Positions 13,667 to 53,770 of a stretch of DNA of 64,000 nucleotides are shown in pieces; positions within the stretch are counted from its first letter, which is position 1; every line of letters starts with the position of its first letter. A program made the position numbers and the translations under genes. Origin of the DNA: Chitinophagaceae bacterium (lineage in GTDB: Bacteria; Bacteroidota; Bacteroidia; Chitinophagales; Chitinophagaceae); NCBI GenBank assembly GCA_947488765.1, contig CANLAE010000008.1, positions 37,716-101,715 on the forward strand. The letters run 5' to 3'. Under the pieces are notes generated by a model. The model did no database searches, had not been told where the DNA came from, and was given only the letters and a program-made list of their open reading frames with translations.

Positions 13667-13675
13667 TGTTTTAAG

Positions 13676-13697
13676 TTGACAGATTTTTGGATGACAG
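13676..13697. repeat. short repeat arm upstream of four-helix-bundle gene (TTGACAG/GATGACAG)
   Basis: TTGACAG (13676-13682) and GATGACAG (13690-13697), reverse complement of the downstream CTGTCATC array. Confidence 0.55.
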
Positions 13698-13740
13698 GAT
13701 TACTATTTCAAATGTAACTTTATCTTTCATAAAAATTGTT

Positions 13741-14106
13741 ATGACCAGCTATAAAAATTTGTTGGCTTGGCAAAAAGCCATGCTTTTGGTTAAAGAGATT
13801 TATACTGTTACCAAACTTTATCCTAAGGAAGAATTGTTTGCATTAACCTCACAAACAAAACGGGCTGCTGTTTCTATTCCAAGTAATATTGCAGAAGGTT
13901 GTGGCAGAAAATCAAAAAAAGATACGAGTCATTTTTTATACATTTCAAGAGGATCATTGTATGAATTAGAAACACATTTAAATATTGCTGTAATGATTGA
14001 AATTTTATCAGAAGCATCTTTTCAAAAAATTACATTAATATTAGATGAATGCTTAAAAATTTTAAACGGCTTAATCCGCAGATATGAAATTGATGACTTA
14101 AAATAA
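13741..14106 (+). CDS. four helix bundle protein (23S rRNA intervening-sequence protein family)
   Basis: NLLAWQKAMLLVKEIYTVTKLYPKEELFALTSQTKRAAVSIPSNIAEGCGRKSKKDTSHFLYISRGSLYELETHL; ATG at 13741 preferred over the track start at 13687. Confidence 0.92.
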   Translation: MTSYKNLLAWQKAMLLVKEIYTVTKLYPKEELFALTSQTKRAAVSIPSNIAEGCGRKSKKDTSHFLYISRGSLYELETHLNIAVMIEILSEASFQKITLILDECLKILNGLIRRYEIDDLK

Positions 14107-14127
14107 AAATAATTTTTTATGAAACCT

Positions 14128-14185
14128 CTGTCATCTATCATCTAATCTCTGTCATCTTAAAATTGTCATCTTAAAACTGTCATCT
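14128..14185. repeat. degenerate CTGTCATCT short-repeat array
   Basis: CTGTCATCTATCATCTAATCTCTGTCATCTTAAAATTGTCATCTTAAAACTGTCATCT between the four-helix-bundle gene and the next ATG (14190). Confidence 0.85.
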
Positions 14186-14189
14186 CCCA

Positions 14190-15383
14190 ATGAATACACG
14201 TCAATTATTTCTTGCTCATCTTGCACAAACTTCTCCTGCGCCAATTGGAATTGAAATGGTGAAAGCAGAAGGAATTTATTTGTATGATAAGGATGGTAAA
14301 AAATATATTGATGGAATCTCAGGATTTAGCGTTGCCAATATTGGACACTCTAATCCGTTGGTAATTGAAGCTGTAAAAAAGCAAGCTGAACAATACATGC
14401 ACTTAATTGTGTATGGCGAATTTATTCAGCAGCCACAAGTAGCTTATGCAAAATTATTAACCGATTATTTACCCAAATCTTTAAACTGTGTATACTTTAC
14501 CAACAGTGGTGCAGAAGCAACAGAAGGCGCTATGAAGTTGGCAAAACGTGTTACCGGACGAACAAAAACAATTGCATTCAACCATTCTTATCATGGAAGT
14601 ACGCAAGGTGCGTTGAGTGTGATGGGTGATGAATATTGGCGCAATGCTTTCAGGCCATTATTGCCCGAAGTTTATCATTATGATTATGGAAGTGAAGCTG
14701 CATTGGCTGCAATTGACGATACGGTTGCTTGTGTAATTATGGAAACGGTACAAGCCGAAGCAGGCATTAATGCTCCTGCAAAAGCATGGATACAAGCCGT
14801 ACGTGAAAAGTGCAATGAACATTGTGTTTTATTAATTCTTGATGAAATACAAAGTGGTTTTGGCAGATCGGGAACGCTATGGGCTTTTGAACAATTTGAT
14901 GTTGTACCCGATATTTTATTACTCGGAAAAGCATTGGGTGGCGGTATGCCAATTGGTGCTTTTATTGCAGACACCCGACTCATGAGCACTTTAACCAATA
15001 ACCCTGTATTGGGCCATATCACTACGTTTGGTGGACATCCAGTAAGTTGTGCTGCGGGTAAAGCAGCATTTGAATTTTTAGTAAATGATACATTGGTACA
15101 TGATGTAAAAGCGAAAGAAAAAATATTATTGAGCAACATTCATCATACTTATATACAATCCATCAAAATCTTTGGAATGTGGATGGCGATTGCGTTTGAT
15201 AGTTTTGAAACCAATCATGCCATCATTCAAAAATGTATTGCAAAAGGGTTGATTACCGATTGGTTTTTATTTGCACCCAATTGTATGCGCATTGCACCGC
15301 CATTAATTGCTACAGAACAAGAATTGATAGATATCTGCAACATTATTAACGAAAGTATCAATGAATATTCCCATGCTGTATAA
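14190..15383 (+). CDS. class III pyridoxal-phosphate aminotransferase
   Basis: YFTNSGAEATEGAMKLAKRVTGR, HGSTQGALSVMG, LILDEIQSGFGRSGTLWAFE, LLGKALGGGMPIGAF. Confidence 0.92.
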   Translation: MNTRQLFLAHLAQTSPAPIGIEMVKAEGIYLYDKDGKKYIDGISGFSVANIGHSNPLVIEAVKKQAEQYMHLIVYGEFIQQPQVAYAKLLTDYLPKSLNCVYFTNSGAEATEGAMKLAKRVTGRTKTIAFNHSYHGSTQGALSVMGDEYWRNAFRPLLPEVYHYDYGSEAALAAIDDTVACVIMETVQAEAGINAPAKAWIQAVREKCNEHCVLLILDEIQSGFGRSGTLWAFEQFDVVPDILLLGKALGGGMPIGAFIADTRLMSTLTNNPVLGHITTFGGHPVSCAAGKAAFEFLVNDTLVHDVKAKEKILLSNIHHTYIQSIKIFGMWMAIAFDSFETNHAIIQKCIAKGLITDWFLFAPNCMRIAPPLIATEQELIDICNIINESINEYSHAV

Positions 15384-33203: not shown

Positions 33204-33235
33204 GGATTTTTCAAACAATTTTTTCAGAATCATCA

Positions 33236-33353
33236 ATGATCTGTGTTATCCATGTGATCTGTGAGAGATAATTTAAAGTTGCTCACGGATAGCACAGATA
33301 GCACGGATATTTTTTTTGTATGATTCGTGAAAACACGAATTATGGCTGAGCAG
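33236..33353. repeat. about 118-bp intergenic repeat, copy 1
   Basis: AATGATCTGTGTTATCCATGTGATCTGTGAGAGATAATTTAAAGTTGCTCACGGATAGCACAGATAGCACGGATATTTTTTTTGTATGATTCGTGAAAACACGAA...GAGCAG. Confidence 0.92.
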
Positions 33354-33395
33354 TTTTTCAAATATTATTTTGGAATTTTTTTTCTTAGAATTATT

Positions 33396-33513
33396 AATGA
33401 TCTGCGTTATCCATGTGATCTGTGAGAGATAATTTAAAGTTGCTCACGGATAGCACAGATAGCACGGATATTTTTTTGTATGATTCGTGAAAACACGAAC
33501 CATCGCGGAGCAG
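33396..33513. repeat. about 118-bp intergenic repeat, copy 2 (near identical direct repeat)
   Basis: AATGATCTGCGTTATCCATGTGATCTGTGAGAGATAATTTAAAGTTGCTCACGGATAGCACAGATAGCACGGATATTTTTTTGTATGATTCGTGAAAACACGAACC...GAGCAG. Confidence 0.92.
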
Positions 33514-33520
33514 ATCAAAT

Positions 33521-33844
33521 TTATTTCCCTTTCACCAAAGCATAAGAGTCATCTATCATTTCTTGCAGTTGACGGTTGTTCAATTGTCCATTTACAATGA
33601 TTGTATTCCAATGTTTTTTGTTCATGTGATAACCGGGTAATACTGCATCAGGGAATTGGTCACGTAGTTCCAAAGCCTTTTCAGGATTGCATTTCACATT
33701 AAATTGTAATGGAAGAATATCTAAACTTGCTAATAAAAATATTTTTCCGTTTATTTTAAATACTAAAGTGTCTTCTCCAAACGGAAAACATGCTTCAGCA
33801 TTGGGTTTGCTGATAGCGTATTCGTGCAGTGCTTCGATGTTCAT
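33521..33844 (-). CDS. MmcQ/YjbR family DNA-binding protein
   Basis: KPNAEACFPFGEDTLVFKINGKIFLL...PGYHMNKKHWNTI. Confidence 0.9.
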   Translation of the reverse strand: MNIEALHEYAISKPNAEACFPFGEDTLVFKINGKIFLLASLDILPLQFNVKCNPEKALELRDQFPDAVLPGYHMNKKHWNTIIVNGQLNNRQLQEMIDDSYALVKGK

Positions 33845-33960
33845 TTTGGAATTATGGTTCTAAAAAAGTTCTACCAAAAATACTAATAATTCTTGTGATG
33901 AGCTCGTTGGAAAATGATAATTACTACAAATTAAAGTTGTGTTTTTGCATGAATCACAAT

Positions 33961-34040
33961 GTGATCTGCGTTATCTGCGAGAGATACATTAAAGTTGCTC
34001 ACGGATAGCACCGATAGCACGGATATTTTTTTGTATTTTT
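33961..34040. repeat. intergenic repeat, copy 3 (partial)
   Basis: GTGATCTGCGTTATCTGCGAGAGATACATTAAAGTTGCTCACGGATAGCACCGATAGCACGGATATTTTTTTGTATT. Confidence 0.85.
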
Positions 34041-34064
34041 TGTGATGAGAAAAACATGGCGTAG

Positions 34065-34145
34065 GTGATCTGCGATATCTGTGTGATCTGTGAGAAATAA
34101 ATTAAAATTACTTACGGATAGCAAAAATAGCAGCAATATTTTTTC
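34065..34145. repeat. intergenic repeat, copy 4 (degenerate)
   Basis: GTGATCTGCGATATCTGTGTGATCTGTGAGAAATAAATTAAAATTACTTACGGATAGCAAAAATAGCAGCAATATTTTTT. Confidence 0.8.
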
Positions 34146-42486: not shown

Positions 42487-43716
42487 TTACACTTTGATAT
42501 AAATTTTTTTCTTGTCCATTAAAAAAACAATCAGCCAGTAAAAAGCAATCATGCACAAGGCATAAACAAGTGAGCCCACTCTTAAATCTGAGGCAATATT
42601 TTTACATACATGTTCATAAAACCAGCCAAAAGCTGATACATAAACGGGTTTGCCATTGGCATCTGTTTTCTCAAAAATTCTAAACAGCCCAAGTAAGCGA
42701 GGCAGAAAGCCACTTAATACAAAAATGAACAATGGATTTTTTCCAAACACATCAAAAAATTTGCTCCATTTTCCGGTAACTCCTTTAAACTCTATCAAAT
42801 AAATTAACAACGCAAGTGTAAGCGTAGCAAGGCCTGTAGTGTAAACGGTATAGCTGCTTGTCCATATTTTTTTGTTAATTTAAATTAACAACGCAAGTGT
42901 AAGCGTAGCAAGGCCTGTAGTGTATACGGTATAGCTGCTTGTCCATATTTTTTTGTTAATTGGAAAAACCATATCCCAACAATAACCTGCAACTACTAAT
43001 ATTACTCCTGCAATAAATAAGTTGCTTAACATTTCAAAATTTTTGCCTTTTTGTTGAATGTATTGACCAATAAAAAAACCAAATATTACTTGTACAATAG
43101 CAGCAATGGTACTTGAAATTCCTTCCGGATCAAAAGGGATTCCTTCTCCTTTATAGATGTGGGAAAGACCTAAAATCTTTAAATCAATGGAAGTTCCAAA
43201 AAATCCGGATAAGCTGTAAGGGTCTGCAGGATTTGAAAACCAGCACAACAACCAATAACCAAGTAATAACGAACAACTGAGTACAAATGCGCCACGTGTT
43301 TTAAGAAAATAAACAGCGATTGAAGCAAAAAAATAACAAACTGCAATGCGTTGCAATACGCCAAAAATGCGGATGTTTTCCCATGTCTTTGCCACCAGAT
43401 GGTTGTTGTCCCATTTTACAAACGGACTCCAGTTTAAGAATAATCCTATTGCAAAAATCAGTAAGGTTCTTTTGATTACTTTTTTAAAAAAGAAGGAATT
43501 TCCTGCTGCTTCAAATTTGGGCATTACAAATGCCATTGCATTTCCTACGGCAAACAAAAAAAACGGAAATACTAAGTCAGTTGGTGTACAGCCATGCCAA
43601 TTGGCATGTTCCAGCGGAGGAAAAATATGCGCCCATGAACCAGGGTTGTTTACCAATATCATCAGTGCTACTGTAGCACCTCTAAATACATCTAAGGAAT
43701 AATATCTTTGATTCAT
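42487..43716 (-). pseudogene. HGSNAT/NagX-like transmembrane acyltransferase (DUF5009/DUF1624-type), interrupted by a stop at an 81-bp tandem duplication
   Basis: Two track ORFs (42880..43716 and 42487..42810) form one protein: YYSLDVFRGATVALMILVNNPGSWAHIFPPLEHANWHGCTPTDLVFPFFLFAVGNAM plus YLIEFKGVTGKWSKFFDVFGKNPLFIFVLSGFLPRLL; in-frame TAA at 42880-42882. Confidence 0.8.
42802..42961. repeat. 81-bp tandem duplication
   Basis: AATTAACAACGCAAGTGTAAGCGTAGCAAGGCCTGTAGTGTA(A/T)ACGGTATAGCTGCTTGTCCATATTTTTTTGTTAATT occurs twice; CGCAAGTGTA at 42811 and again at 42892 (period 81). Confidence 0.95.
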
Positions 43717-48929: not shown

Positions 48930-49787
48930 ATGCAAAAAACAACAGATACACCCGAGTGGGATTTGGTAATACAGCCTCAAAGCTCCTTATTTAGTTTAAA
49001 TTTGAGAGATGTATGGCGTTACCGTGATTTGCTTGTGATGTTTGTGAAACGAGATTTTGTGAGTTTTTACAAACAAACCATATTAGGGCCCTTGTGGTTT
49101 TTTATACAGCCATTATTTACAACAATTGTATTTACTTTCATTTTTGGTAATTTAGCCGGACTTAGTACTGATGATTTGCCACAGCCTTTGTTTTATATGG
49201 CAGGGATTACTGCCTGGAATTATTTTGCCGATTGCCTTACCAAAACTTCTACCGTTTTTCGGGACAATGCCAATATTTTTGGTAAAGTATATTTTCCTCG
49301 CTTAATTATGCCGTTAAGTATTGTAGCAAGTAATTTGGTGCGGTTTGGTGTGCAAATGATTTTGTTTATAATGATGGTTGTGTATTACTATTTTCAGGGG
49401 GCACATTTTCAAATTACTTGGGCAATTGCGCTATTTCCATTGTTAATAATACTTATGGCATTACTTGGTTTGGGGTTGGGTTTAATTATTACCGCATTAA
49501 CCACCACTTATAGAGATTTGGCTTTTTTAATAACTTTTGGTGTACAATTAATGATGTATGCCACAACAGTAATTTACCCATTGAGCTCCGCTCCGGCAAA
49601 GTACCACACCATTGTTACACTCAATCCCATGACAGGCATTATAGAGGCTTTCCGTTACGGGTTTTTGGGCAAAGGCATTATTACCTGGCACACATTGGGT
49701 TACTCTGTTATTTTTACAGTAATATCTGTTTTATTAGGCGTTGTAATTTTTAATAAAACGGAGAAGACGTTTGTGGATACGATATAA
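48930..49787 (+). CDS. ABC transporter permease, polysaccharide export (Wzm-like)
   Basis: VMFVKRDFVSFYKQTILGPLWFFIQPLFTTIVFTFIFGNLAG; ATG at 48930 (the track start at 48762 lies out of frame inside wzc). Confidence 0.92.
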   Translation: MQKTTDTPEWDLVIQPQSSLFSLNLRDVWRYRDLLVMFVKRDFVSFYKQTILGPLWFFIQPLFTTIVFTFIFGNLAGLSTDDLPQPLFYMAGITAWNYFADCLTKTSTVFRDNANIFGKVYFPRLIMPLSIVASNLVRFGVQMILFIMMVVYYYFQGAHFQITWAIALFPLLIILMALLGLGLGLIITALTTTYRDLAFLITFGVQLMMYATTVIYPLSSAPAKYHTIVTLNPMTGIIEAFRYGFLGKGIITWHTLGYSVIFTVISVLLGVVIFNKTEKTFVDTI

Positions 49788-49918
49788 GGTTGAGGATAAG
49801 GTTGAGGGGGGAGAAAGGTTGAGGTAAAGGTTGAGGGGGGAAAAGAAAGGTTGAGATGAGGATAAGGTTGAGGATAAGTTTAAGGATAAGGTTGAGGGGG
49901 AAAAGAAAGGTTAAGATT
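49787..49918. repeat. degenerate GGTTGAGG(GGG/ATAA) array, G-rich on + strand
   Basis: AAGGTTGAGGATAAGGTTGAGGGGGGAGAAAGGTTGAGGTAAAGGTTGAGGGGGGAAAAGAAAGGTTGAGATGAGGATAAGGTTGAGG... starts at the wzm stop. Confidence 0.92.
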
Positions 49919-49981
49919 GAAATAAATTAATTTTAAAATAATAAAAGATACAAATAAAGTAGTTGTTCGTTGAAGCATTGC

Positions 49982-50100
49982 AACTCAACCTCAACCTCAA
50001 TCTCAACCTCAATCTCAACCTCAATCTCAACCTCAATCTCAACCTCAATCTCAACCTCAATCTCAACCTCAATCTCAACCTCAATCTCAATCTCAACCTC
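49982..50100. repeat. CTCAACCTCAAT 12-mer/hexamer array
   Basis: About nine CTCAAT units interleaved with CTCAAC, ending directly at the ATG at 50101. Confidence 0.97.
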
Positions 50101-50472
50101 ATGAAATATTTATCTTTTGAAGAGATGCCGGTTTGGAAAAATGCGATGGGGTTGGCAGTGTCAATTTTTGAGATAACAAAATCTTTACCGAGGGCTGAAG
50201 ATTACGGGTTAACAAGCCAAATAAGACGCTCAGCGTTGTCGGTCTCCGCTAATATTGCAGAAGGTTTTGGAAGAGAAACGCAAATGGATAAAAAACGTTT
50301 CTACATAATAGCAAAAGGAAGCCTATTGGAAACAAAAAGTCATTTTATATATGGTTGTAAAGTAGCTTATTTTAAAGAAGATCCTGTCATTATAAAACAG
50401 TTGGAACAGATATATTTTGAAATAAACAAGCTCAATAAATCTATTAAAAATAATCTCAACCCTCAACCTTAA
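50101..50472 (+). CDS. four helix bundle protein (23S rRNA intervening-sequence protein family)
   Basis: MKYLSFEEMPVWKNAMGLAVSIFEITKSLPRAEDYGLTSQIRRSALSVSANIAEGFGRETQMDKKRFYIIAKGSLLETKSHF; the ORF stays open upstream through the repeat as (NL)n to a TTG at 49963. Confidence 0.92.
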   Translation: MKYLSFEEMPVWKNAMGLAVSIFEITKSLPRAEDYGLTSQIRRSALSVSANIAEGFGRETQMDKKRFYIIAKGSLLETKSHFIYGCKVAYFKEDPVIIKQLEQIYFEINKLNKSIKNNLNPQP

Positions 50473-50490
50473 CCTCAACCTAACCTTAGC
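50453..50490. repeat. short CTCAACC/CTTAACC repeat block
   Basis: ATAATCTCAACCCTCAACCTTAACCTCAACCTAACCTTAGCC; contains the stop codon of the four-helix-bundle gene. Confidence 0.85.
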
Positions 50491-50499
50491 CTAATTACT

Positions 50500-51048
50500 T
50501 TGTCATCCAACGAAATAGTCATTTATCAGTCAGAAAATACATCTACTCATATAGATGTTTTATTAGAAGATGAAACCGTGTGGCTTACACAATTACAAAT
50601 GGTAGAGTTGTTTCAATCGACAAAGCAAAATATTAGTTTGCATATAAGTAATATTTTTAAAGAGGATGAGCTACGAGAAAACTCAGTTGTCAAGTATTCA
50701 TTGACAACTGCATCTGATGGTAAAAAATATAAAACAAAGTTGTATAATCTCGATGTAATTATATCGGTTGGTTATAGAGTGAAGTCAAAAACGGGAACAC
50801 AATTTCGCATCTGGGCAACAAATACTTTAAAAACGTATTTATTGAAAGGATATGTTATTCAGGATAGGATTGAAAGTATTGAAAAAAAAATTTACGAACA
50901 TGATACTAAAATAAAATTATTACTCAACACTAATTTACCTCCAAATCAAGGTGTGTTTTTTGATGGAGCAGTTTTTGACGCTTATGTTTTCGTATCTAAA
51001 TTAATTAAATCAGCAAAAAACCAAAACCGTATTAATCCAATAAATTGA
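50500..51048 (+). CDS. RhuM-like virulence/KilA-N-type protein, apparently C-terminally truncated
   Basis: VLLEDETVWLTQLQMVELFQSTKQNISLHISNIFKEDELRENSVVKYSLTTASDGKKYKTKLYNLDVIISVGYRVKSKTGTQFRIWAT; ends soon after LIKSAK. Confidence 0.85.
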   Translation: MSSNEIVIYQSENTSTHIDVLLEDETVWLTQLQMVELFQSTKQNISLHISNIFKEDELRENSVVKYSLTTASDGKKYKTKLYNLDVIISVGYRVKSKTGTQFRIWATNTLKTYLLKGYVIQDRIESIEKKIYEHDTKIKLLLNTNLPPNQGVFFDGAVFDAYVFVSKLIKSAKNQNRINPIN

Positions 51049-52409
51049 TAACAGAAAATCAACATACAGAATTCAAATCGAGTTTCAATGAGACTGTGAT
51101 AGAAACCTTGTGTGCCTTTGTAAACACCAATGGAGGAAAAGTGTATGTAGGTATAGATGATAAAGGAATGCCGGTTCCTAATTTTTCCATAGGTAAGGAA
51201 ACCATAGCAAATTGGATTAATGAAATAAAAAATAAAACACAACCCAGTATCATAGCCGATATAGAACCTTTAATTAGTTATGGGAAAGAAGTCGTTTGTA
51301 TAAGTGTAAATGAGTTTCCCGTAAAACCAGTTTCTTACAAAGGAAGGTATTACAAACGTGTTAATAACTCGAATCACCAACTTTCATCAATAGAAATCAC
51401 CAATTTGAGTTTGCAATCTTTACAACTTTCCTGGGATTCTTACATAGCGCATGGGAAAAGTATAGAAGATTTAGATACACATAAAGTGAATGCTTTTTTT
51501 GAAAGGGTAAATTCGATGGGGCGGTTTAGGCTTGAAGGCAGTTGGATCGAAAAACTTCATAAATTAAAGTTGGTACAAGGTGCCGTGATTACGAATGCAG
51601 CTTGGTTGTTATTTGCAAAAGAAAGTACAGGATATAATGTTCATTTAGGCAGATTAAAAACGCCTTCTATGATTATTGACGATAAGATGCTTAACGGCAC
51701 TTTGTTCGATATGGTCGAGGAAACCATGCGGTATATTATAGGTCAGATAAAAGTTGCCTTTGAGATAAAAGGTATGCCTACGCAGCGAACGGAGATATTC
51801 GAATATCCGCTTCCCGCTTTGAGAGAGATAGTTCTCAATGCCGTTATTCATAGGGACTATATGAGTCCGATAGATATACAAATTAAAATTTTCGATAATT
51901 ATATTACATTTTATAATCCAGGAACGCTTTATGGGAATCTTACCGTAGCCGATCTTAAAAAGGACAATTATCAAGCTATAGCCCGAAATAAATTGATAGC
52001 AGAAGCGTTTTATCTTACAGGTGACATAGAGAAATATGGTAGTGGTTTTGTACGAATTCGTAAAGGAATCAAGGAATATCCCACAATGAAAATGGAGTTT
52101 GCAGAGGTTGCTAGCGGTTTTTTATGGACTGTTAGTTATACGAAGCAGCGAGTGAGTTTGGTTGATGATAAAGTCACCGATAAAGTCACCGATAAAGTCA
52201 CCGATAAAGTCACCGATAATCAAGCATTAATCGTACAATTTATTTCTGAAAATAATAAAATAACAACCCAAATGCTTTCGGAAAAGGTAAAAATTTCCCA
52301 AAGAAAAATAAAAGAAAATATAGCTAAATTGAAAGAAATTGGCCTTATCGAACGCATAGGATCTGCTAAAGGGGGATTTTGGAAAGTGCAGTCTACGAAC
52401 AACGAATAA
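51045..52409 (+). CDS. AlbA_2/Schlafen-type DNA-binding domain ATP-binding protein with C-terminal HTH
   Basis: TEFKSSFNETVIETLCAFVNTNGGKVYVGIDDKG (AlbA_2), ALREIVLNAVIHRDY (ATP-binding), C-terminal winged-helix-like KITTQMLSEKVKISQRKIKENIAKLKEIGLIERIG. Confidence 0.9.
   Translation: MITENQHTEFKSSFNETVIETLCAFVNTNGGKVYVGIDDKGMPVPNFSIGKETIANWINEIKNKTQPSIIADIEPLISYGKEVVCISVNEFPVKPVSYKGRYYKRVNNSNHQLSSIEITNLSLQSLQLSWDSYIAHGKSIEDLDTHKVNAFFERVNSMGRFRLEGSWIEKLHKLKLVQGAVITNAAWLLFAKESTGYNVHLGRLKTPSMIIDDKMLNGTLFDMVEETMRYIIGQIKVAFEIKGMPTQRTEIFEYPLPALREIVLNAVIHRDYMSPIDIQIKIFDNYITFYNPGTLYGNLTVADLKKDNYQAIARNKLIAEAFYLTGDIEKYGSGFVRIRKGIKEYPTMKMEFAEVASGFLWTVSYTKQRVSLVDDKVTDKVTDKVTDKVTDNQALIVQFISENNKITTQMLSEKVKISQRKIKENIAKLKEIGLIERIGSAKGGFWKVQSTNNE
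52167..52214 (+). repeat. 12-bp GATAAAGTCACC array (four perfect copies) encoding DKVT repeats
   Basis: GATAAAGTCACC x4 plus a partial unit; protein DKVTDKVTDKVTDKVTDN. Confidence 0.97.
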
Positions 52410-52426: not shown

Positions 52427-52513
52427 AACCTCAACCTCAACCTCAACCTCAACCTCAACCTTAACCTCAACCTTAACCTTAACCTTAACCTCAACCTCAA
52501 CCTCAACCTCAAC
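52427..52513. repeat. AACCTC/AACCTT hexamer array abutting the wzt start codon
   Basis: 87 bp, about 14.5 units of AACCTC with AACCTT variants; next base is the A of ATG at 52514. Confidence 0.97.
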
Positions 52514-53770
52514 ATGTCCACCGCCATCAAAGTAGAAAACCTTTCTAAAATTTACCGACTAGGGGAAATAGGCACGGGTACCATTTCTCGTGATTTGGAG
52601 CGATGGGTAAAGGTGAAACTAATGGGTAAAGAAGACCCGTTTTTAAAAATAGGTGAGAGCAATGACAGAAGTAAAAGGGGAAACAGTGATATTGAGTATA
52701 GTTTAAAGGATATCAATTTTGAAATACAACAAGGCGATGCGGTAGGTATTATTGGCCGGAATGGAGCGGGAAAAAGTACGTTGTTAAAAATTTTATCACG
52801 GGTTACGACACCCACCACCGGTAAAATAAATATTAAGGGCAGGGTAGCCAGTTTATTGGAAGTGGGTACCGGCTTTCACCCCGAATTGACAGGCAGAGAA
52901 AATGTCTATTTGAATGGGGCCATACTAGGAATGAGGAAAAAAGAAATTGACCGAAAATTTGATGAAATTGTTGATTTTAGTGGTGTAGAACGCTATATAG
53001 ATACACCGGTAAAACGCTACAGCAGCGGAATGTATGTACGGCTGGCATTTGCGGTAGCGGCGCACTTGGAAAGTGAAATTTTGATTGTAGATGAAGTACT
53101 AGCTGTTGGCGATGCTGAATTTCAAAAAAAATGTTTGGGCAAGATGGGGGACATTTCAAAAGGGGAAGGAAGGACGGTGTTGTTTGTGAGTCATAATATA
53201 AGTGCTATACTAAATTTATGTAGTGCAGGAATTTATCTGAAGAATGGTAGCCTTTTATCTTTAGGGGATTGTTCTTCTGTAGTAAAAGAATATTTTGATG
53301 ACAGACTAAATTCAAAGTCAGATAAAGTTCAGATTGATTCTACTAACAAGGATGTTTGGTTAGTCGATATGAATTTTCAAAGTGAAAGTTCGATGGTAAT
53401 ACGAACATTTGATGATGTTAACGTAAATATAATTATAGAGAGTAAAAAAAAGCTTGAAAATGTTTTAGTTGGAATTGGCATAAATGATATGAATGAAAAT
53501 AGAGTAGTTACTTTTTTTAGCAAGTTCTATAATAGTTCTTTTGATTTAAATATTGGTCTTAATAATATTGGTTGCTCCATAACTAATTTTTGTATCAAAC
53601 CAGGATTATATACGGTTGAAGTCTATATTGGAGATGGCTATAATATATATGACTATTATGATAAAGGTTTCAAATTATACGTTGAAGTTTCCGACAATAA
53701 ATCTCAGTTAATCTACCCTGATTCATCTCAGGGGAATCTAGTTTTAAATCAAAAATGGAATAAAATATGA
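52514..53770 (+). CDS. ABC transporter ATP-binding protein, polysaccharide export (Wzt-like) with C-terminal domain
   Basis: GIIGRNGAGKSTLLKILSRVTTPTTGKI, RYSSGMYVRLAFAVAAHLESEILIVDEVLAVGDAEFQ; the track ORF extends upstream through the repeat. Confidence 0.94.
   Translation: MSTAIKVENLSKIYRLGEIGTGTISRDLERWVKVKLMGKEDPFLKIGESNDRSKRGNSDIEYSLKDINFEIQQGDAVGIIGRNGAGKSTLLKILSRVTTPTTGKINIKGRVASLLEVGTGFHPELTGRENVYLNGAILGMRKKEIDRKFDEIVDFSGVERYIDTPVKRYSSGMYVRLAFAVAAHLESEILIVDEVLAVGDAEFQKKCLGKMGDISKGEGRTVLFVSHNISAILNLCSAGIYLKNGSLLSLGDCSSVVKEYFDDRLNSKSDKVQIDSTNKDVWLVDMNFQSESSMVIRTFDDVNVNIIIESKKKLENVLVGIGINDMNENRVVTFFSKFYNSSFDLNIGLNNIGCSITNFCIKPGLYTVEVYIGDGYNIYDYYDKGFKLYVEVSDNKSQLIYPDSSQGNLVLNQKWNKI

Follow-up and report, generated by a model that had tools for sequence, protein, structure and literature searches.

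A four-helix-bundle protein gene between inverted repeat arrays in a Chitinophagaceae genome: a candidate compact gene-plus-repeat element

Described systems and the locus between the wzm-like and wzt-like genes

The closest described systems are the intervening sequences (IVS) of 23S rRNA genes and the REPtrons. In Coxiella, Leptospira and other bacteria, the 23S IVS carries a PF05635-family ORF (S23/IVP) between complementary ends; in Coxiella, the stem of the IVS measures 28 bp, RNase III cuts the IVS, and the S23 ORF is preceded by heptamer repeats (PMC4990558). The REPtron consists of a TnpA_REP/RAYT gene bordered by its cognate REPs, with gene-less REPs elsewhere in the genome (PMC8266576).

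The window, which is the whole stretch of 64,000 nucleotides analyzed here, shows a gene encoding a four-helix-bundle (4HB) protein between wzm and wzt, the O-antigen exporter genes at the insertion site. The 4HB gene is framed by a GGTTGAGG array and by CCTCAACC arrays complementary to it. The features, all on the forward strand, are:

48930-49787, +, wzm-like ABC-2 type exporter permease, upstream host gene (PF01061, E=3.4e-22)
49786 to about 49920, +, array 1, upstream arm, degenerate GGTTGAGG/GGATAAGG units (read from the sequence; TRF 49786-49912)
49984-50101, +, array 2, CTCAATCTCAAC repeated about 10 times (TRF 9.8 copies, 97% matches)
50101-50472, +, 4HB gene, 123 aa (PF05635, E=3.6e-30)
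50451-50494, +, array 3, downstream arm, CTCAACCCTCAACCTTAACCTCAACC (TRF)
50500-51048, +, RhuM-family ORF, 182 aa (PF13310; PADLOC PDC-S05, E=1.4e-70)
51045-52409, +, gene for a SLFN_AlbA_2 / HATPase_c_4 / winged-helix protein (PF04326, PF13749)
52427-52513, +, array 4, AACCTC repeated 14.5 times (TRF)
52514-53770, +, wzt-like ABC exporter ATPase, downstream host gene (PF00005, PF14524)

Array 1 starts at the stop codon of the wzm-like gene, array 2 directly reaches the ATG of the 4HB gene (50101), and the stop codon of that gene (50470-50472) lies within array 3. Array 4 adjoins the start codon of wzt and not the 4HB gene; the stretch between arrays 3 and 4, within the wzm-wzt gap, is occupied by the SLFN_AlbA_2 gene and the RhuM-family ORF, which matches only the N-terminal part of its profile (positions 1-65 of 252). 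The first-pass annotation had placed a 4HB gene amid complementary arrays, and all four arrays and the PF05635 match were found. DNA resembling the RhuM ORF was also seen near 4HB and wzt genes in loci L147 and L092. Elsewhere in the window, positions 42800-42961 show an 81-nt tandem repeat with two copies that are 98% alike.

Local complementarity of array 1 was 27.5 to array 2, 20.5 to array 3 and 30.5 to array 4, whereas random segments of the window reached a median of 7; this bears out the earlier proposal that array 1 could pair with any of the other three; stem pairing in the RNA of the window is possible. A minimum free energy (MFE) fold of the RNA of 49786-50496 (-210 kcal/mol) nests array 1 with array 2 as inner and array 3 as outer partner, and both the alignment and this fold indicate that arrays 1 and 2 are able to form a hairpin. 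According to pattern searches, from which all genome-wide array counts derive, CTYAAY x3 is confined to the window locus in the 2.5 Mb genome, with no hits of the reversed control.

The 4HB protein exceeds the curated cut-offs of PF05635 (104.7 bits vs 33.8) and TIGR02436 (98.8 vs 24). Its AF2 model has a pLDDT of 91.5, with predicted helices at residues 10-26, 35-56, 61-87 and 95-114, and matches 2GSC (XCC0516; TM 0.85, rmsd 1.3, 32% identity) and also 2RLD (BT_0352), two solved S23-family proteins with no assigned function. Matches to Avd of the diversity-generating retroelements were weaker (4DWL, TM 0.63; 8UB7, TM 0.60): the fold is similar, at 10% sequence identity. No reverse transcriptase (PF00078) match was found in the genome of the window (G000) or in G009, a genome with 19 4HB matches, and with PF00078 absent we rejected reverse transcriptase-driven mobility for the genome of the window. 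The 4HB protein had no PADLOC hit, and its membership of a defence system was rejected on this basis. Genes of the PF05635 family over the cut-off were present in 34 of the 41 sampled Bacteroidota genomes.

The locus thus shares its protein family with the 23S IVS and is REPtron-like in layout, and by protein and layout it is akin to the IVS, although it is a member of neither group. Like the 23S IVS, whose terminal complementary sequences have about 30 nt, it has a PF05635-family ORF between complementary ends and, as in Coxiella, short tandem repeats ahead of the ORF (PMC4990558). The 23S IVS, however, sits in an rRNA gene, whereas the window element lies between protein-coding genes and the arms of the 4HB elements are tandem arrays with a unit specific to the protein clade; furthermore, the 4HB elements lack a wobble signature and gene-less array copies occur. 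With the REPtron it shares cognate repeats in opposite orientation beside the gene. The REPtron has a HuH/Y1 transposase and its repeats are REP palindromes with a GTAG tag, while the window gene matches PF05635 only, as a four-helix bundle, and the 4HB repeats are degenerate tandem units. Gene-less repeats were seen for the types of L002, L003, L004 (other 4HB loci of this genome) and the GxxExxY genes, but not for CTYAAY x3 of the window.

On balance, we lean towards a compact gene-plus-array element whose protein recognizes its own inverted arrays, most likely as DNA, and enables the copying or re-establishment of the unit.

Complementary flanks across the 4HB family and in other families

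A set of 168 distinct 4HB loci was assembled from the genome of the window, its relatives as far out as order level and 80 genome_contigs loci spanning many phyla. Each was given a flank score by aligning the 250 nt before the gene with the reverse complement of the 250 nt after it and taking the best value. The median score was 17, compared with 9 for position-shifted intervals along the same loci, and 117 of the 168 loci were above the 99th percentile (14.0) of these shifted controls; about 30% showed no detectable complementary arms at this threshold, which speaks against the element. A control with mismatched pairs likewise had a median of 9, but the recurrence of repeat families gave it a heavy tail; its 99th percentile (27.5) was exceeded by only 9 of 168 loci, and therefore the threshold was taken from the shifted positions and the mismatched pairs were compared by medians (17 vs 9).

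Scores above 14 were absent from the flanks of AguA (0/19), ArgD (0/21) and RhuM (0/26) genes. RhuM was thereby rejected as a further family with complementary flanks; its flanks were cut at the profile borders and not at the full ORF ends, many RhuM matches being partial. Enrichment of inverted repeats in the flanks across the family, a check set beforehand in the first-pass annotation, was therefore found (117/168 vs 0/66 in the ordinary families and RhuM together), and the complementary-flank layout is a property of the 4HB family which recurs in many bacterial phyla. GxxExxY (PDDEXK_3) genes also show complementary repeat flanks above 14, in 16 of 26 loci (L316-L345). Their flank units are mostly of the CACAAAG/CACAGAG type.

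An unbiased inverted-repeat scan of 112 loci gave eight rows with a spacing of 150-800 nt outside the focal gene, which represent seven distinct pairs because two rows in L158 are the same pair. Four of these pairs enclose a 4HB gene (L101, L154 and L158 by profile, L100 by eye), two a GxxExxY gene (L125 by eye and match position, L158 by eye) and one an apparent ORF6N ORF (L121, by eye). Rows with shorter (40) or longer (18) spacing, and a further 22 rows near the 4HB gene, were only counted. Among the sampled loci, the layout is restricted to 4HB and GxxExxY genes plus this one apparent ORF6N case. A perfect AGGTGGTCGCA..TGCGACCACCT palindrome stands on both sides of the short ORF6N-like ORF in L121 (5128-5399).

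Arms, protein clades and gene-less arrays

The median arm length in the 117 loci above the threshold is 31 nt, and G outnumbers C in the upstream arm of 109 of these loci. The two arms of a locus co-vary at shared sites: across 23 sites common to at least two loci (70 loci, genome relatedness left in), own arms matched better than cross arms (16.25 vs 12.5, p=1e-5).

The repeat unit tracks the protein clade and not the host or the site. Of the 77 loci encoding a protein with 47% or higher identity to the window protein, 52 carry GGTTRAG in both arms; the 91 other 4HB loci include no such case. Four of these 77 come from the genome of the window and its relatives (L005, L048, L092 and L106) and the rest from genome_contigs, where the phyla named include Bacteroidota, Nitrospirae, Elusimicrobia, Cloacimonadota, Deltaproteobacteria and others. 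For pairs without a common neighbour, a Mantel test gave r=0.684 over the full set and 0.173 when the window clade was left out, with 0 of 1000 permutations reaching the value in each case. When two clades occupy one site, the arms go with the protein, as in L046 vs L151, L196 and L208 at wzm-wzt and in L158 vs L178 and L186, a comparison based on five low-identity pairs. L113, from a clade other than that of the window protein, shows GTTCACAAG arms. Shared descent of gene and flanks could be a partial source of the match between clade and repeat, though pairs sharing a neighbour were excluded.

These data also bear on whether the arrays are a mutational by-product, in which slippage would expand the repeats, template switching between the arms would keep them complementary and the protein would be irrelevant. 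Degenerate tandem units and the concerted change of the arms fit slippage plus quasi-palindrome correction; nevertheless, this explanation, already disfavoured, accounts neither for the restriction to 4HB and GxxExxY genes nor for the way in which the unit follows the protein clade from host to host and from site to site, and we regard it as highly improbable.

The PF05635 search of the genome of the window gave seven matches, which correspond to six genes because an interrupted gene at C1:350154-350470 (L006, outside the scored set) accounts for two adjacent matches. By eye, all five other loci show short degenerate flank repeats which differ per locus and are rich in G upstream of the gene and in C downstream. 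Flank scores were strong in L002 (20.5), intermediate in L001 (13.0) and L003 (12.5), and at background in L004 (9.5), although arrays are visible there. L002 is a second 4HB gene in the window (13741-14106), with arrays at about 13667-13707 and 14127-14192; its complementary flanks have the unit CTGTCATCTTAAAA, two further copies of which are located elsewhere in the genome (C13 and C24). The downstream array of L004 falls inside the AguA coding sequence, where it encodes an N-terminal extension of AguA, PNSKLSDLGLPDFSLSDS.

Paralogous 4HB genes within genomes have a median identity of 31% and a maximum of 80%, with different arms, and no near-identical paralogues with the same arms were found at different sites. 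Recent transposition or within-genome amplification was consequently rejected, which also weighs against the element reading. A tendency of within-genome paralogues to avoid similar arms was rejected as well, since they did not differ from between-genome pairs.

Gene-less copies of the arrays occur. Arms of L002, L003 and L004 find matches in the islands L352 and L353 of the same genome, with alignments beyond the 95th percentile obtained for random 320-nt segments, but the arms of L001, L006 and the window gene show no clear alignment to these islands. Convincing dispersed gene-less arrays were not found for the window clade, L001 or L006, a further point against an element. In the intergenic islands L352, L353 and L366, several repeat classes follow one another, and three of these classes match own-genome 4HB arms; L352 and L353 give the impression, by eye, of a common order of array classes. 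GxxExxY-type hairpins without a gene were observed at positions 33220-34140 of the window, where CACGGATAGCACAGAT repeats, the unit found beside GxxExxY genes, surround a short ORF (33521-33844), and another solo hairpin of this type lies at C1:285 kb.

Selection, the level of recognition and the proposed element

The 4HB protein is mostly under purifying selection: NG86 dN/dS was about 0.07-0.25 in eight of nine pairs at shared sites, the exception being L003-L131 (about 0.46). A simple ORF method called both neighbours in 162 loci; the 4HB gene is sense to both in 128 of these and antisense to both in five. Neighbouring pairs of other genes within these loci are on one strand in 79% of cases. 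Sense orientation is expected either from a function at the RNA level or from a need for read-through expression. The elements also decay to remnants. The argC-argD gap, which has only a few nt, up to about 20, in the relatives L271, L273 and L274, holds a 4HB gene in other relatives and, in G009, a 3' fragment of the gene amid array remnants; at the AguA site of the sister species G005, a deletion scar marks the place of the 4HB gene, of which just the final codons survive.

Purifying selection on most pairs would also be expected of an immobile local regulator, a protein that binds the arrays of its own operon and controls transcription or translation of the neighbours. The arrays adjoin the start codons of the 4HB gene and wzt, and the same gene pairs, such as wzm-wzt and argC-argD, recur as sites, in agreement with such a role. 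Across loci, however, the neighbours have no functional relation, close relatives show loss or decay of the element, and one clade with one repeat is found at many different sites, so local regulation appears improbable.

The first-pass annotation had likened the locus to a free-standing rRNA IVS. Read at the RNA level, the element would be transcribed within the host operon, its arms would pair, RNase III would cut and the protein would bind or protect the stem-loop. The protein family and the layout of an ORF between complementary ends shared with the Coxiella 23S IVS (PMC4990558), the sense position of the 4HB genes within operons, the long stems predicted in window RNA and a fold in common with Avd, a component of a ribonucleoprotein of diversity-generating retroelements, are all consistent with it. 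Selected pairing of sense RNA should give more G-U than A-C mismatches in the arms; nevertheless, mismatches over the 117 loci were 120 G-U vs 157 A-C (binomial p=0.03 toward an A-C excess), and 29 vs 45 by locus (p=0.08). This comparison, the single one in the analysis that tells RNA from DNA, therefore gives no sign of selection keeping sense-RNA pairing, and RNA-level pairing selection was rejected. Furthermore, stem formation alone leaves the gene-less arrays and the clade-specific units unexplained. The analogy stands for the architecture, the flank enrichment and the co-varying arms, but not for an RNA stem as the object maintained, and we consider the RNA-level form unlikely.

The compact gene-plus-array element, in contrast, would probably operate on DNA. 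The 4HB gene and its flanking arrays would act as one genetic unit, and the protein, as we strongly infer, would recognize the short repeat of its own arrays, oppositely oriented on the two sides, probably by direct binding and as DNA rather than RNA. Host replication and recombination might then copy or re-establish the unit, or in some cases just its arrays, with short gaps between co-directed operon genes as the target sites; mobility by this route is plausible. Neither a target-site duplication nor an exact element end could be established, and we know of no catalytic motif for the four-helix-bundle fold, and both points count against it. More tentatively, and with rather more doubt than conviction, the 4HB genes and, separately, the GxxExxY (PD-(D/E)XK) genes might represent cross-phylum mobile elements that lack a recognized transposase, each clade reading its own repeat.

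No description of the layout was found in titles and abstracts of the open-access full-text literature, a body that leaves most subscription journals and preprints outside, and priority is not established; the data point to compact gene-plus-repeat elements as an undescribed family. The 4HB element ties the old puzzle of the rRNA intervening sequences to a free-standing form, and the clade-specific repeats offer a concrete test substrate for a common family which has solved structures but no assigned function. If the protein reads the repeats, these loci would provide a natural set of paired proteins and target sequences.
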